This document shows positions 16,847 to 26,156 of a stretch of DNA of 36,255 nt, one piece after another. Under the pieces are notes generated by a model. The model did not search any database. It had not been told where the DNA came from and saw only the letters and a program-made list of their open reading frames with translations. Origin of the DNA: Candidatus Eisenbacteria bacterium (GTDB lineage: Bacteria > Eisenbacteria > RBG-16-71-46 > JASEGR01); the NCBI GenBank assembly GCA_030017955.1, contig JASEGR010000026.1:1-36255 (forward strand), in the 5' to 3' direction. A program made the translations under genes and the position numbers. Within the stretch, counting starts at the first letter, position 1, and every line of letters begins with the position of its first letter.

Positions 16847-17226
16847 TGCGTTTTGTTCCTCTCATTTCCGGTGGCTTTAATCAACGTCTGAGATAGGGAT
16901 ATCATGCGATCCAGGGCGAACGTGTAACCTTCAAGGATTTCCCGATAGCGTCTTTGCGGCGCCGTCTCGGCTTCCATCCTGACTTTGCGGTCCAGCTCCG
17001 TGACGTTCTCCCTAGAGATAAGAGCCTCGAAGCAGGACTGTTTGTAGAAGCTCATGGCCCATGCCGCCAGGTTAACGCAACGGGAGTATAGGGCCACGGC
17101 GTGTTTAGCCTTCCCGCACATCATCTCAAAGTCATCCGGTAGACCTTCGGACAAAAAAGAAGCAATTGCTTTAACTTCCTCGTCGTGCCTGGACCGGAAT
17201 TCGTCGAAACTCTCCCGTGCCGTCAT
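16843..17226 (-). CDS. Hypothetical helical protein
   Basis: 127 residues, almost wholly helical and charged, with three Cys residues (CGKAKHAVALYSRCVNLAAW, YREILEGYTFALDRMISLSQ). Overlaps both neighbours by four bases. Family unrecognised; may be a nuclease accessory or host-takeover protein, but nothing in the sequence settles this. Confidence 0.5.
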   Translation of the reverse strand: MTARESFDEFRSRHDEEVKAIASFLSEGLPDDFEMMCGKAKHAVALYSRCVNLAAWAMSFYKQSCFEALISRENVTELDRKVRMEAETAPQRRYREILEGYTFALDRMISLSQTLIKATGNERNKTQ

Positions 17227-17711
17227 ACGGCCTCCATTTCTCCGGCATCCTCCTCCACCTCTCCGTTCTCGTAGGCTAACTGCTCGGCGACGCAGGCCAG
17301 CGAGTCGTCGAGATCGTATGCGTGGCGCGGGAAAACGCTGACATCTCCGCTCAGGCCGCTGACGTCCCCGCGCAGGTCGGTGACATAGCCGCGCAGGCCG
17401 CTGGCGTCCCCGCTCAGGCCGCTGACGTCCCCGCGCAGGCCGGTGACATCTCCGCTCAGGCCGCTGACGTCCCCGCTCAGGTCGGTGACATAGCCGCTCA
17501 GGCCGCTGACGTCCCCGCTCAGGCCGCTGACGTCCCCGCTCAGGCCGCTGACATAGCCGCGCAGGCCGGTGACATAGCCGCGCAGGCCGGTGACATCTCC
17601 GCTCAGGCCGGTGACATAGCCGCGCAGGCCGGTGACATAGCCGCGCAGGCCGGAGGCCAACATCGCCAGATAGCTGATTTTGTCAGCCTTGTTTTCCGTA
17701 GCGTCAGTCAC
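17223..17711 (-). CDS. Heptapeptide-repeat protein (L-x-G-x-V-x-G repeats)
   Basis: 162 residues. After a short helical start (ISYLAMLAS) the protein consists of about fifteen tandem seven-residue units, mainly GLSGDVS, GLRGYVT or GLRGDVS, ending near residue 125, then an acidic C-terminal tail (DLDDSLACVAEQLAYENGEV). Related short proteins built from GLSGDVSGLRGDV units are, as I recall, scattered across phages and bacteria, without known function. Regular Leu and Val spacing every seven residues could give a fibrous or solenoid structure. The frame is chosen because the start and stop overlap both neighbours by four bases. Confidence 0.65.
   Translation of the reverse strand: MTDATENKADKISYLAMLASGLRGYVTGLRGYVTGLSGDVTGLRGYVTGLRGYVSGLSGDVSGLSGDVSGLSGYVTDLSGDVSGLSGDVTGLRGDVSGLSGDASGLRGYVTDLRGDVSGLSGDVSVFPRHAYDLDDSLACVAEQLAYENGEVEEDAGEMEAV
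17331..17652. repeat. 21-bp tandem repeats within the heptapeptide gene
   Basis: About fifteen consecutive 21-bp units of the form GCTCAGGCCGCTGACGTCCCC (as read on the + strand, with variants such as CGCAGGCCGGTGACATAGCCG). Units differ at a few positions that switch S/R, D/Y and S/T. Because the unit length is a multiple of three, slippage keeps the frame and changes only repeat number. Both strands are open through the array. Confidence 0.85.
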
Positions 17712-19494: not shown

Positions 19495-20147
<653 letters not shown>

Positions 20148-20518: not shown

Positions 20519-21142
20519 TCAAAACATATCCTCCACAATAATAGCACTAGCGTTATCACTTGTCAAGTGGCAATTGGCCAGGAATAAAACAGCCGACTGA
20601 AAGTTCAATATTCTCTTCGCCATGACATAACCTATCGCGTCCACTCGTCGACAACAAACGAAACAGTACCCATGCCCCGACGCATAAATATGAAGAGATG
20701 GCCTTGTATCGTCGTGAAATGGGCATAAAGTTTTATTCATAACAACCTCCGCCACTTCGGACAATTTCACCGCCCGCGCTCTTTCCACCATCATTTCCCA
20801 CTCGAAACAGTTCAGGCTGGGGGGTTTCAGTCCGGCGTTCTCCTGGTATCGTTTCCGGCACTCGTACGGGAACGTTCCCAGCCACGGGGTCCATTCCTGA
20901 ATTTCCCGCCGGGCTTTCCACTCCATTTTCTTGCGGAGTATCCTTAAGTCCTGAATCCAATCCGCTATTTCCTCCAGGGCTTGAGGATCGTATCCAAGAG
21001 CCGTAAGTTTTATTAGCCACTTTGGGTGCTGCATCAACTCTTGGAGTTCCCGAAGCGGGATGTTTTGCGTCATGGCCTCCGCGCCAATTATCTGAGGCCC
21101 CACTTCGACGCCATTTGTCATATTGTTTTCGCACGAAAGCAT
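20519..21142 (-). CDS. CHC2 zinc-finger protein, primase N-domain-like, without catalytic domain
   Basis: 207 residues from the ATG at 21142 (after CAGGAG). The C-terminal part has the primase CHC2 finger: CPFHDDTRPSLHIY and then GYCFVC, with C-x2-H ... C-x2-C ligands, followed by DAIGYVMAKR. Upstream residues (EWTPWLGTFPYECRKRYQEN, MMVERARAVKLSEVAEVV) resemble the linker that precedes the finger in other phage primase-like proteins. No TOPRIM motif follows, so this is the DNA-binding module only. An alternative start at 20740 has a perfect GGAGG site and would yield just the 73-residue finger. The first 410 bases overlap the helicase frame. Confidence 0.65.
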   Translation of the reverse strand: MLSCENNMTNGVEVGPQIIGAEAMTQNIPLRELQELMQHPKWLIKLTALGYDPQALEEIADWIQDLRILRKKMEWKARREIQEWTPWLGTFPYECRKRYQENAGLKPPSLNCFEWEMMVERARAVKLSEVAEVVMNKTLCPFHDDTRPSLHIYASGHGYCFVCCRRVDAIGYVMAKRILNFQSAVLFLANCHLTSDNASAIIVEDMF

Positions 21143-23597
21143 TGACTGTGTCTCCTGGTTCCATCGTTTCATTTTTCGACATTCCATTCGGCCAGCACCC
21201 GAAGCGTTCTTTGTACTTATGCGCCGCCCAGCCAGCCTTGAATCCGCGATCCCTAGCAATCCAAAGAAGCTGTTTGTACCAGTCCCGTCGCGGGATACCG
21301 CCGGACTCCATCTCTATTTTCCCGACTTCGTACAGGTATCCGTCACGGTATTCGATGCCTTCACCGAACGTCTTGGGCTCATTGCCGCATTCGGGGCAAA
21401 TTTTGCGACCCCAGTAGACGGCCTTGCAAGAGGTGCAGACGATCTCTTTTTTCCCCTCTTTTTTCCTTTTTTCCTGATGCTCAGACGCGAGACCGGTGCC
21501 CTTGGTCAGTTCCCAATGGGTATATCCCTCGACAGGGCCATGCTCGTAGACGGAACCGGTGTGATCAATGAGAATTGCGTCAATTTTTCCTGGTGACGGT
21601 CGCAATATCCTGCCGATCATCTGAATGTAACGAACAATTGACTTCGTGGGACGGGCCAAAACACAACAAGATATCGGCGGGAAGTCCCAACCCAAGACGA
21701 AAACGGAATCGTTGCAGACGACCTGACATTCACCGGAGTTCATCTTGGCATAGACCATCTGACGTTCTTCCGGCGACGTTGATCCGTCAACATGATCCGC
21801 AGGGATACCGACGGCTCGGAAAGCATCCCTAACGTGCATGGAGTGTTTGACGCCGGAGCAAAATACGACGGTTAGCCGATTCTTGGCGATGCGGGCCCAG
21901 TTCTCTACGATATCTCCGATAAGGATCGGCTTGTCCATCGCGGTCTCTAGCGAGCCTTGGTTATAGTCGCCTGCCGTTACTTTGATGGCATGGAGATCGG
22001 GGATAGTCGGGGCGAAGTACTTTAGCGGGACGAGATAGCCTTGCTCGGTCAATTCTTTGATGGAAGCCGTATGCACCATCTTCTCGAACAGGTCGCCCAA
22101 GCCGCGATTGTCCATCCGCGCAGGGGTAGCCGTTAAACCCAGAATGCGGGTCTCCGGGTAGGCAGCGAAAATTCTTTTCCACGTATCGGCCATCGCGAGA
22201 TGGCATTCGTCCGCTACGAGCAGGTCTGCCTTTGGGAGTTCTATAGCCGACCGCTTGAAGCTTCTGGCCAAAAGCGTCTGGACACTTGCGACCTGGACAG
22301 CCGCTGAATAGTCCGGCTCGACTCCGGCCATGATCGGAGCGGCGTATACTCCATACTGTTTGAGCTTATCCACGGCTTGGTAGATCAGCTCCCGCAGTGA
22401 AGCTAGAAACAGGACATTCAAGCCGGCATTAACGTGCTGTTTGATGATCTCACAAGCTAGGATCGTTTTGCCTGAATTATGCGTTACGGTGAAATCATCG
22501 AGTAGATACCGGCCATTGCCATCGAGGATAAATCCGTATATCTTCCCTCTTCCAATTCTCTTAACCGCGAACCCCTGACGCAGGACATCTTTTTTTTGCG
22601 AGCGAGGTTTTGAAATTTTTCTTTCTACCCTACAAGGGATAATATCAGTATCTCCAGATATAGAGACCCTGAAATATTCCGCCGAGAAATTGTTTTGACA
22701 GGATTTCCGACATTGCCGTATATAAGCGGCCAACCCCAATGATCTGGCCAAGAAACAAACGCCTCGCGCCAGTTTTTCAGACTTTGAAATATAATCGTAA
22801 CCCTTACGCGATAAACTTCCGTCTGTATCCATGAGTCCAGCCAGGACAGCGAGCCTTTGCTGAACAGACCCGTTCAAATACGCGGCTGGAATGAACTTGC
22901 TCCCAGCCCTGCATCCAATCAAACCCATACCGGACAAAGTATTCCGCAAGAAATTTCTATCGCCACGCTTTTTGCCTACAAGAAAATGCGTTACGGATAA
23001 TCCTTTCCCGAAAGAAGTCCTTATTCTGAGATTCCATTTCTTGGCTTGTATTTCCAATTCTTTAAATATTTCTTCGTTTCCGTTAGCCACGGAAACCCCA
23101 TAACCCAGTCCGCCATCTCCAAGTAAGATACCGAGGAAGTATGGGTCTACCGACAAGACGTTCTTCGGCCAGTAAGATATCCCGACACGAAACAACTTGT
23201 AAATGTGTTTCCGCCAATTCGGCCATTCAAGCCAATCCTTCAACGCTACGTCTGCAATCTTCCCCCCATAGGGATCGCCTGGAAATTCATTGGTTTTTAT
23301 CAAAGAAAGAACATGATTTTCGTTTACAACGAAACCATTGCCTTTCTTAGGCGTAATCTTGTAAATCGTATCCGTTCCTCGATGGGTGCTGAAAACTCTT
23401 CTGGGTCCGTCAAGACCGGCCAACGAATCACCGGCAGAAATATCCTCAACCAATTTCATGGACCCGTCAGCCATCAATATTCCTTGCCCTGCGACGTGAC
23501 ACGCCGTTGGAGCGTGGACCAGGATACGGGTATATCCATCCGCGACAGCTTTGGAGAAGTCATTGACGGCGCTGATTTGGTAGGGCCTTAATTCCAT
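20733..23597 (-). CDS. Superfamily-2 DEAD/DEAH-type helicase interrupted by an intein
   Basis: 954 residues, of which 33-374 are an intein. The extein has an N-terminal Q-like motif (ELRPYQISAVNDF), Walker A HAPTA/SGKT (joined at 32/375), DECH at 463-466, LTATPAR near 489-495 and motif VI QMIGRILRPSPGK. A four-Cys zinc ribbon follows (CTSCKAVYWGRKICPECG, near 721-737). The RAD25/SSL2-like phage helicase normally ends near the segment RFGCWPN (about 798-804). The remaining approx. 130 residues are Gly, Ser and Pro-rich and overlap another gene. Such helicases are thought to help open DNA for phage replication. It is the first large gene of the - strand operon. Confidence 0.9.
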   Translation of the reverse strand: MELRPYQISAVNDFSKAVADGYTRILVHAPTACHVAGQGILMADGSMKLVEDISAGDSLAGLDGPRRVFSTHRGTDTIYKITPKKGNGFVVNENHVLSLIKTNEFPGDPYGGKIADVALKDWLEWPNWRKHIYKLFRVGISYWPKNVLSVDPYFLGILLGDGGLGYGVSVANGNEEIFKELEIQAKKWNLRIRTSFGKGLSVTHFLVGKKRGDRNFLRNTLSGMGLIGCRAGSKFIPAAYLNGSVQQRLAVLAGLMDTDGSLSRKGYDYISKSEKLARGVCFLARSLGLAAYIRQCRKSCQNNFSAEYFRVSISGDTDIIPCRVERKISKPRSQKKDVLRQGFAVKRIGRGKIYGFILDGNGRYLLDDFTVTHNSGKTILACEIIKQHVNAGLNVLFLASLRELIYQAVDKLKQYGVYAAPIMAGVEPDYSAAVQVASVQTLLARSFKRSAIELPKADLLVADECHLAMADTWKRIFAAYPETRILGLTATPARMDNRGLGDLFEKMVHTASIKELTEQGYLVPLKYFAPTIPDLHAIKVTAGDYNQGSLETAMDKPILIGDIVENWARIAKNRLTVVFCSGVKHSMHVRDAFRAVGIPADHVDGSTSPEERQMVYAKMNSGECQVVCNDSVFVLGWDFPPISCCVLARPTKSIVRYIQMIGRILRPSPGKIDAILIDHTGSVYEHGPVEGYTHWELTKGTGLASEHQEKRKKEGKKEIVCTSCKAVYWGRKICPECGNEPKTFGEGIEYRDGYLYEVGKIEMESGGIPRRDWYKQLLWIARDRGFKAGWAAHKYKERFGCWPNGMSKNETMEPGDTVNAFVRKQYDKWRRSGASDNWRGGHDAKHPASGTPRVDAAPKVANKTYGSWIRSSSPGGNSGLDSGLKDTPQENGVESPAGNSGMDPVAGNVPVRVPETIPGERRTETPQPELFRVGNDGGKSAGGEIVRSGGGCYE
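22476..23501 (-). mobile_element. Intein with LAGLIDADG homing endonuclease
   Basis: 342 residues (helicase residues 33-374). It begins with Cys (CHVAGQGILMADGSMKLVED, block A), has a block-B-like NENHVL, and ends YLLDDFTVTHN followed by Ser (block F/G with His-Asn and Ser +1). Both endonuclease motifs are present: FLGILLGDGG (about 122-131) and LAGLMDTDGS (about 220-229). All residues needed for splicing by the class 1 pathway are seen. Insertion splits the Walker A motif (APTA | SGKT), one of the best-known intein sites. Self-splicing restores an intact ATP-binding loop. Confidence 0.95.
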
Positions 23598-23963: not shown

Positions 23964-24002
23964 TTTTACTCCTTGCCTTTATTTTCCAATTCCATCTCAG
24001 GC

Positions 24003-24126
24003 CCTCGCCAAGCCTCGCCTTGCCTGGCCTAGTCCGGCCTGGCCACACATCGCCTCACCTTGCCACGAAAAGTCTGGCCCCAGTTAAGACCCCTGCCCAG
24101 CCTTGCCACGCCTAGCCGCGCCACGC
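24003..24126. repeat. CCNNG pentanucleotide repeat in the operon leader
   Basis: About 20 degenerate copies of a five-base unit CCNNG (+ strand: cctcg, ccaag, ccttg, cctgg, cctag, ccacg and so on), with one 25-base interruption. On the transcribed - strand this is a CNNGG series in the 5' leader between the promoter (24170-24198) and the first gene (23963). Purpose unknown; it could be a protein-binding array, part of an origin or an RNA structure. Confidence 0.7.
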
Positions 24127-24520: not shown

Positions 24521-24928
24521 ATGAATAAACTGGACAAGAAACGGCAGTTTCAGGATCATCTTATGCGGATCAGAGAAACTTTCGAAAAGGACCTTGAGGC
24601 ACTTTATCGTCTTTATCCCGAATTTGTTCCAGCTACTTCCGTGCGACCCGGTCAAGATGTGTCGCGGGGAAAGCTTGTGCATGTTATCCGACAGGCATTG
24701 AATAATCGGCCCAACGTGCAATTCCGACTCAACGATGTGCGTATTTGGTTGCAGGAAACCGACCCAAACCAGACCGCTACTTTTACAAATTCGGATATTT
24801 CCAACGTGCTTTTTCGGTTGGCGAAACGCAAGGAAATTGAAGCCATCTCGCCTCCAAAAACCAGGCCCGTTTTGTACCGCACCATCAGCAGAAGTCAAGG
24901 AGGCGTTCATGCAGTTAAAATCATGTAA
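24521..24928 (+). CDS. Putative winged-helix DNA-binding protein
   Basis: 135 residues. N-terminal charged helix (KKRQFQDHLMRIRETFEKDL), then a winged-helix-like segment: GKLVHVIRQALNNRPNVQFR, NDVRIWLQE, TNSDISNVLFRLAKRKEIEA and a wing ending RPVLYRT. This matches small wHTH proteins used as regulators. It reads in the opposite direction to the early operon, beside its promoter, which is where a regulator of the switch might lie. A GGGCCGC/GCGGCCC hairpin follows at about 24930. Confidence 0.55.
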   Translation: MNKLDKKRQFQDHLMRIRETFEKDLEALYRLYPEFVPATSVRPGQDVSRGKLVHVIRQALNNRPNVQFRLNDVRIWLQETDPNQTATFTNSDISNVLFRLAKRKEIEAISPPKTRPVLYRTISRSQGGVHAVKIM

Positions 24929-25013: not shown

Positions 25014-25097
25014 GCCCCCGTGGCGAAACCGGTAACCGCTGTGGCCTTGGAAGCCACTGTCCGAGGGGACTTGCGGGTTCAAATCCCGCCGGGGGCA
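25014..25097 (+). tRNA. Class II tRNA, leucine-type body, anticodon UGG
   Basis: 84 nt, complete cloverleaf: acceptor GCCCCCG (25014-25020) with CGGGGGC (25090-25096) and discriminator A; D-arm GCG/CGC with GG in the loop; anticodon stem GTGGC/GCCAC with loop CTTGGAA, giving anticodon TGG at 25048-25050; long variable arm TGTCC-GAGG-GGACT; T-arm GCGGG-TTCAAAT-CCCGC. CCA is only partly encoded (ACC). The long variable arm, TGGCG-type D-arm and A73 are those of bacterial tRNA-Leu. UGG is a proline anticodon, one base from the leucine UAG. No suppressor or other tRNA was seen nearby. Confidence 0.85.
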
Positions 25098-25136
25098 CCC
25101 TCATTTTAGCAGTTTTATTATTACTCTTCAAGACTC

Positions 25137-26156
25137 TCATGCAGTTGGGGCCTTGTAGGTTAGGCGTTTCCCTTCGACGGCTCGCAGGGCGGCCATAGCT
25201 CGCTCTCCGTCGGTGGACTTCCGCATATTCCACCTAAACGCAAATTCATCGTTGTAGCGATCCAGGTGCTTCTCGCTGATGTTGTGGAAGGTGCCAATAA
25301 TGCCGCGCTTGAGGAGCGAGAAATAAGACTCGGCGGTGTTCGTGTAGACGTTGCCCCGAACGTACTCAAGGGCCGAGTGATTGACTGCCTCATGGGATTG
25401 ATAGCCGCGTCCAATGGGGGTATATGCCTTCCATTGGTCGGTCATGAGCCAGGATTGCCTGTCAACGTTTTCTTCGATGGCTTTGCGTAGCTCTTTGACT
25501 CCGGCGTTCTTGATCTTGAAAGAACGGACGTTTCCGCCGCGCTGAACCAAGGCAATGACGGGGATTTTCTTCTTGGCGCCTTCGCGGAATCGTGGCGAAA
25601 TGGGCCGATTCTTATTTTTTCCACCAACGTAGGTTTCGTCAACCTCAACGACGCCGCGTAGCTTCACGCTCAATGGGCCTTCGCTCATGGCATGACGTAC
25701 CCGATGGCACATGAACCACGCGCTCTTGTAGGTGATCCCCATCATGCGGGAAATCTGAAGGGCGCTGATCCCTTTCTTGCTCGCGGTCATCAGGTGAAGA
25801 ACCGTCATCCATTTGTGAATGGGAATCTTGCTCCCATGGAAAATCGTGCCGACAGTGACAGAGAATTGCTTGCGGCAATCTCGGCACTTGCACAGCCCTT
25901 TCCGAGTCTTAGACGCCGGGTCAGAGTTCAGCCTATATGCCGAGGTAGAACCGCAGAAGGGACAGAACGGGCCATTCGGCCAGCGGCTTTGCTCCAACAT
26001 CTCAATGGCCTGATCCTCTTTGTTTTTTTTCTTTAACTGATGACATTCTCCTCCATTTGTCCCATCCAAAAGAAAAGCAACTTCACGCAATTTTCCGGCC
26101 ATCTCTTCAAACCTTCGCGCTTGTTCACGGAATTCCGTCGGACTTAATAATGCCAT
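25137..26156 (-). CDS. IS1595/ISXO2-type transposase
   Basis: 339 residues. A zinc-ribbon N-domain is visible (CPFCGS ... CKCRDC), followed by the ISXO2-like DDE core: VEVDETYVGGKNKNR (first Asp), WLMTDQWKAY (second Asp), and YTNTAESYFSLLKRGIIGTF (NTxE segment). Length and layout match full-length family members. No inverted repeats with a duplicated target could be assigned with certainty; a 13-bp near-identical direct repeat (ATTTTAGCAGTTT / ATTTTAACAGTTT) lies at 25103 and 26283. The gene is intact. It may be a resident insertion, or a captured gene. It sits beside the tRNA, on the opposite strand. Confidence 0.85.
   Translation of the reverse strand: MALLSPTEFREQARRFEEMAGKLREVAFLLDGTNGGECHQLKKKNKEDQAIEMLEQSRWPNGPFCPFCGSTSAYRLNSDPASKTRKGLCKCRDCRKQFSVTVGTIFHGSKIPIHKWMTVLHLMTASKKGISALQISRMMGITYKSAWFMCHRVRHAMSEGPLSVKLRGVVEVDETYVGGKNKNRPISPRFREGAKKKIPVIALVQRGGNVRSFKIKNAGVKELRKAIEENVDRQSWLMTDQWKAYTPIGRGYQSHEAVNHSALEYVRGNVYTNTAESYFSLLKRGIIGTFHNISEKHLDRYNDEFAFRWNMRKSTDGERAMAALRAVEGKRLTYKAPTA

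Follow-up and report, generated by a model that had tools for sequence, protein, structure and literature searches.

The locus described here centres on a class II, leucine-type tRNA gene (25014-25097, plus strand) that carries the anticodon UGG (25048-25050) together with A73 and G1:C72. A gene for an IS1595-family transposase with a zinc ribbon and a DDE domain (25137-26156, minus strand) is convergent with it, with 39 bp between the two; Pfam matches were obtained to DDE_Tnp_IS1595 (5.7e-40) and Zn_ribbon_IS1595 (6e-14), and an NCBIfam match to NF033547 (4.8e-63). Solved structures searched for the transposase gave nothing useful, and no convincing pair of terminal repeats was found around 24.4-26.4 kb. 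Located 85 bp upstream of the tRNA, on the same strand, is an ORF of 135 amino acids (24521-24928) in which a coiled coil and, after it, a winged helix can be seen by eye; it has no Pfam or PHROG match. Many relatives are similar at the same place: the gene just 5' of the tRNA, again on the same strand, encodes a coiled coil and winged helix or, alternatively, XRE and peptidase parts (by eye).

The window, by which we mean the whole stretch of 36,255 nucleotides that was analysed, is an entire contig (C26) of a 3.1-Mb MAG. It reads as a nearly complete phage, with terminase, portal, capsid, helicase with intein and exonuclease; no relatives of this phage were found among the viral contigs searched with the terminase. 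Near-identical inverted hairpins (GCCGTGGAG.GTGCAC.CTCCACGGC) stand at both contig ends (1-30 and 36224-36255), which suggests that a circular genome was opened at a palindrome resembling a terminator. The SF2 helicase (20733-23597, minus strand) is split by a LAGLIDADG intein inserted in the motif I region, and a low-complexity CCTTGCCTGGCC-like stretch (23980-24115) separates the helicase region from the tRNA module. Two short ORFs, at 17223-17711 and 19940-20137 (both minus strand), are highly repetitive, with GLRGYVTGLSGDV-type repeats and a Ser/Arg/Trp-rich repeat. Three differing Ile(GAT)/Ala(TGC) tRNA pairs occur on small contigs of the assembly (C117, C131 and C148 of G000), which may reflect multiple rRNA operons or a MAG of mixed origin.

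The tRNA and its relatives

ARAGORN calls the gene tRNA-Pro(tgg) (25014-25099), and the Rfam tRNA model matches 25014-25097 with 58.2 bits. The minimum free energy fold is the expected cloverleaf (GCCCCCG-TG-GCG..CGC-T-GTGGC-CTTGGAA-GCCAC-TGTCCGAGGGGACTT-GCGGG-TTCAAAT-CCCGC-CGGGGGC-A), with a 4-bp variable stem (GTCC/GGAC, loop GAGG) and an anticodon loop holding U33, UGG and A37. The gene ends in CCC at its 3' side, so that the CCA end is only partly encoded. Compared with bacterial tRNA-Leu, the class II cloverleaf, the long variable arm, the Leu D arm and A73 are all present, whereas an anticodon for a Leu codon is absent. Compared with bacterial tRNA-Pro, the NGG anticodon is present, whereas C1:G72 and the short variable loop of class I are absent. 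By sequence the gene is closest to other Leu-type UGG tRNAs (score up to 47.5) and next to Leu tRNAs (up to 32), its nearest Leu-type UGG relative being closer than any ordinary tRNA-Leu of the set; among the other tRNAs of the same genome, Leu is the isotype that scores highest (23.5), followed by Arg (16.5). A sequence-only reading of this DNA had described an intact cloverleaf with a long variable arm, a Leu-type body, anticodon UGG, A73 and G1:C72, and each of these features is borne out. No near copy of the gene was found in the host MAG, which has a normal set of Pro tRNAs (UGG, CGG and GGG) and five Leu tRNAs, so that the tRNA of the window is an extra gene.

Relatives were collected with a pattern that combines the Leu D arm, a YUUGGRN anticodon loop and the T arm at class II spacing. 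This yielded about 11 distinct matches from viral contigs and, from species genomes of bacteria and archaea, at least about 28; in all, at least about 45 similar tRNAs are found in phage contigs and bacterial MAGs, nearly all of them as the sole tRNA of the sequence stretch examined. Among 59 relatives of the MAG we found one Leu-type UGG tRNA (L033, in G001), again with the transposase alongside.

In an alignment of 43 of these tRNAs, 98.5% of the stem cells are paired with variation in every helix, and two-sided changes number 280 against a shuffled mean of 73. This covariation among relatives that fold alike demonstrates that the tRNA is not a product of chance and that its structure is kept by selection. 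A73 is present in 42 of the 43 and G1:C72 in 37, while C1:G72, a strong determinant for bacterial ProRS (PMC9976931), occurs in five.

Control scans of viral contigs with single-step neighbour anticodons gave far fewer Leu-bodied cases, UUG excepted: one family for CGG, about one case for UCG, about one each for UGA and CGA among the matches listed, and none for GGG. The exception concerns class II, Leu-like phage tRNAs with UUG (Gln) at L234, L236, L240, L244, L250, L264 and L265; these combine G73 with a U1 or A1 end and have apparently switched towards Gln identity.

Linkage to IS1595-type transposases

Of the nonredundant tRNA loci, 23 contain a homologue of the transposase, in many cases 3-130 bp from the Leu-type tRNA, against 0 of the 363 other loci examined. 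In roughly half of the tRNA loci, the sequence stretch examined lacks a transposase. Linked loci span Acidobacteriota, Planctomycetota, Chloroflexota, Pseudomonadota, Verrucomicrobiota, Actinomycetota and phages, and the linked transposases mostly occur in one copy per genome. In the transposase tree, from which the window's copy was left out as a duplicate, a clade of 20 members (support 100/100) is nearly entirely tRNA-linked, and further linked genes are scattered on other branches. The transposase loci L521 and L203 contain an in-frame stop, and some linked loci may be decaying. We hold it about as likely as not that the tRNA gene and the IS1595-type transposase beside it constitute a single mobile module. 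In a full-text search of the open-access literature, no description of an IS1595 element accompanied by a tRNA turned up.

The first tRNA set had been chosen for UGG; a second approach therefore started from the transposases, whose flanks were scanned with ARAGORN, Rfam and our own covariance model (anticodons of covariance-model matches were read by eye from the stems). Most Leu-bodied tRNAs near transposases again carry UGG. Other anticodons are AGG (L441 and L477), UGC (L478, L518, L523 and L525) and, more rarely, GGA (L422) and UUA (L528). No Leu anticodon was seen among the transposase-linked Leu-bodied tRNAs within about 2 kb. Decoding of codons other than those for Leu, chiefly Pro codons, is thus a property of the module. 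The UUA tRNA (L528:2749-2833, G686:C72) would read the stop codon UAA. Its transposase gene contains no in-frame TAA and has no reserved CCA codons (see below) either.

In many relatives the transposase is adjoined by a small basic protein of about 45 residues with the motif GPxPxxLKIxGxWxDAVKKxLxKKxPxxGWPK, the gene for which is absent from the window. It has no match in Pfam, NCBIfam or PHROGs and constitutes an undescribed family; loci include L095, L101, L114, L134, L157, L173, L194, L203, L222, L446, L517, L519 and L532, among others.

Codon use in the linked transposases

In 33 UGG-linked transposases we observed four alignment columns in which nearly all Pro codons are CCA (17/17, 18/19, 17/19 and 11/13). 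When the column/amino-acid sets of all four- and six-fold amino acids with a minimum of 10 members are ranked, 173 in number, these columns take places 1, 2, 3 and 5. Conserved Pro columns of the family as a whole use CCG and CCC, codons around the reserved ones vary freely, and outside the special columns the CCA share of Pro codons is 0.14 in UGG-linked against 0.12 in unlinked genes. The window's transposase has two such reserved codons, at residue 161 (25674-25676, minus strand) and residue 337 (25146-25148, minus strand), and one further CCA at residue 188. In the predicted structure (mean pLDDT 77.5), residue 161 follows helix 143-156 and precedes the first strand of the catalytic domain, that is, it falls in a predicted linker from the HTH part to the catalytic domain; residue 337 falls in a predicted disordered C-terminal tail. 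The small basic protein has a comparable pattern, with mostly CCA for the Pro of 'GP' and almost never for that of 'GWP'. The genes upstream of the tRNA, whether of the coiled-coil/winged-helix or the XRE type, showed no reserved CCA pattern.

The initial choice of the special columns drew on some of these same data, and only two tests are free of this selection. One is a permutation within genes that is based solely on the frequency of Pro in unlinked homologues: this frequency is 0.139 at CCA columns against 0.378 at columns with other CCN codons (p 2e-4; p 5e-4 and 5e-5 in two data halves; p 0.56 in unlinked genes). The other uses held-out genes, collected afterwards, in which CCA occupies 15 of 17 special positions with a UGG tRNA against 0 of 8 without one (p 4e-5). 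For L520 the codons predicted a tRNA, which was then found with a longer flank. Clustering at 65% identity yields a CCA share of 0.95 in 19 UGG clusters against 0.14 in 29 others (p 5e-9); the sequences are related, and all p-values are optimistic for that reason. In L447, L495, L409, L421 and L423 a special column holds CCA and no tRNA was detected nearby, flanks being short for some genes counted as 'no tRNA'.

The codon appears to follow the anticodon. In the AGG-linked gene L441 both special columns hold CCT, a codon used for none of its 13 other Pro codons. The four UGC-linked genes have no CCA at special columns; GCA occurs at one Ala column in 4/4 of them (against 1/19 UGG-linked genes) and at another in 3/4. 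With four genes, replacement of CCA by GCA next to UGC tRNAs is suggestive only. At the level of sequence comparison, these results demonstrate linkage, selection on the tRNA, and coevolution of its anticodon with the codons of the transposase across diverged lineages.

Leucine as the residue at these sites finds no support among homologues, which mostly have A, S, T, D, E or P in the reserved columns and little Leu. At column 241 (EPL motif) unlinked relatives have a true Pro. Given both observations, homology does not point to Leu.

The sequence-only reading had also suggested looking for CCA at positions that are Leu in homologues of phage proteins. A genome-wide reading of this kind finds no support in the phage: CCA accounts for 75 of its 424 Pro codons, is not depleted, and stands at sites of conserved Pro, for instance at codon 30 of the helicase, within the 'HAP-T' of motif I. 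Whole-phage recoding of CCA is therefore rejected. The same reading had offered a genuine recoding device, an anti-host effect and a drifted gene as options. A recoding device is the best supported of the three, though not as a change of the phage's code: the matching reserved CCA codons stand in the adjacent transposase (and in the small protein of relatives), a link which that reading did not contain.

Interpretation and comparison with known systems

That the element's tRNA decodes the codons reserved in the element's transposase is, in our view, about as likely as not. What bacterial LeuRS recognises is A73 and the shape of the tRNA rather than the anticodon, for which reason leucine would probably be inserted at these codons. 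The host LeuRS would charge the tRNA, while the host Pro-tRNA(UGG) would compete for the same CCA codons; the reserved sites would be domain boundaries that tolerate either residue. Through this competition the amount or form of the transposase made (and likewise of the small partner protein in relatives) would come to depend on the element's tRNA. Other IS elements use programmed frameshifts, and the translational control proposed here would be comparable in purpose. More tentatively, and at somewhat less than even probability, there may be a class of elements whose transposase is written in reserved sense codons that are read as intended only by their own mismatched tRNA, the codon following the anticodon (CCA/UGG, CCU/AGG, GCA/UGC): a private, local genetic code that controls movement.

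It might be argued that the tRNA accepts proline (or another amino acid) and merely paces translation at domain boundaries, decoding the reserved codons there slowly or at set times and with no change of amino acid intended, as an element-borne switch resembling bldA. The predicted positions of the reserved sites in a linker and a disordered tail would suit such a role, as would the true Pro at column 241, the resemblance of the residues at other columns to Pro substitutes, and the presence of G35, G36 and A73, which ProRS recognises (PMC9976931). However, the Leu-type body and the lack of C1:G72 in 38/43 tRNAs speak against bacterial ProRS, CCA would not be limiting given the host's Pro-tRNA(UGG), and the avoidance of CCA at conserved Pro columns is left unexplained by pacing alone. 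We regard pacing as rather unlikely. Still less probable is mistranslation directed at the host or serving stress adaptation, in which the fidelity of CCA would be lowered cell-wide and the transposase would hitchhike or be adapted. Mistranslating tRNAs can be selected, as for tRNAProX (PMC10365949), and avoidance of CCA at conserved Pro of linked genes would fit self-protection; yet self-protection predicts loss of CCA rather than fixed CCA at special columns, and the phage has CCA at conserved Pro.

Other accounts take the tRNA out of translation altogether. Improbable in our view is a role as target, attachment site, 3'-end processing signal or regulatory RNA. Mobile elements often use tRNA genes, and close linkage and lone occurrence would agree with this, but without decoding it is hard to see how in-frame codons of two genes would come to match the anticodon so specifically, and the codons around the reserved ones vary. 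That the gene is a drifted or dead tRNA-Leu without function has next to no probability left and is refuted as a general account, even though a single base change (UAG to UGG) would produce it. The same type recurs in dozens of lineages with compensatory changes in all helices, and transposase linkage, the match with codon columns and the lack of a close Leu copy in the genome point the same way; anticodon drift of tRNA-Leu was also rejected on the control anticodons, which, UUG apart, had far fewer Leu-bodied cases among the matches listed from viral contigs.

If the preferred reading, decoding of reserved codons by the element's own tRNA, is true, a dedicated tRNA would control transposition by decoding sense codons kept in reserve, a form of local recoding that, as far as the open-access literature shows, has not been described before in mobile elements. 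It would supply natural, repeated cases in which selection sets a sense codon apart and the codon changes in step with the anticodon, and a small module would then allow tests of how a sense codon can gain a second meaning. When tRNAs are annotated from the anticodon only, such genes are mislabelled.

The module belongs to none of tRNAProX, nev-tRNAs and phage recoding tRNAs, because a Pro body, a ProRSx neighbour, a stop codon and genome-wide reassignment are absent. We know of no gene linked to the nev-tRNAs of nematodes. These share a long variable arm with a non-Leu anticodon, but are eukaryotic with Gly or Ile anticodons, and were leucylated in vitro with no detectable mistranslation in cells (PMC4300185). 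The tRNAProX of Streptomyces and Kitasatospora, which occurs with ProRSx, is similar in that body and anticodon belong to different amino acids, selection maintains it and a partner gene is linked (PMC10365949). It differs in having a Pro body, an Ala, Asn or Thr anticodon and a synthetase as partner, whereas here a Leu body with mostly a Pro anticodon is joined to a codon-reserving transposase; the window has no Pro body with an Ala, Asn or Thr anticodon, and no synthetase gene (ProRSx) is found among the ORFs beside the tRNA, the neighbour being the IS1595 transposase. Suppressor tRNAs of stop-recoded phages are likewise brought by an element for codons reserved in its own genes, but there stop codons are concerned phage-wide, and here a sense codon at few positions in one or two genes (PMC10879173). 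The bldA tRNA-Leu(UAA) of Streptomyces also gates the genes that hold its codon; it is chromosomal and cognate, whereas the present tRNA is element-borne and mismatched between body and anticodon (PMC4932002). Finally, the window's transposase belongs to the IS1595 family of insertion sequences, from which the tRNA-linked copies stand apart in being mostly single per genome and in carrying a tRNA.
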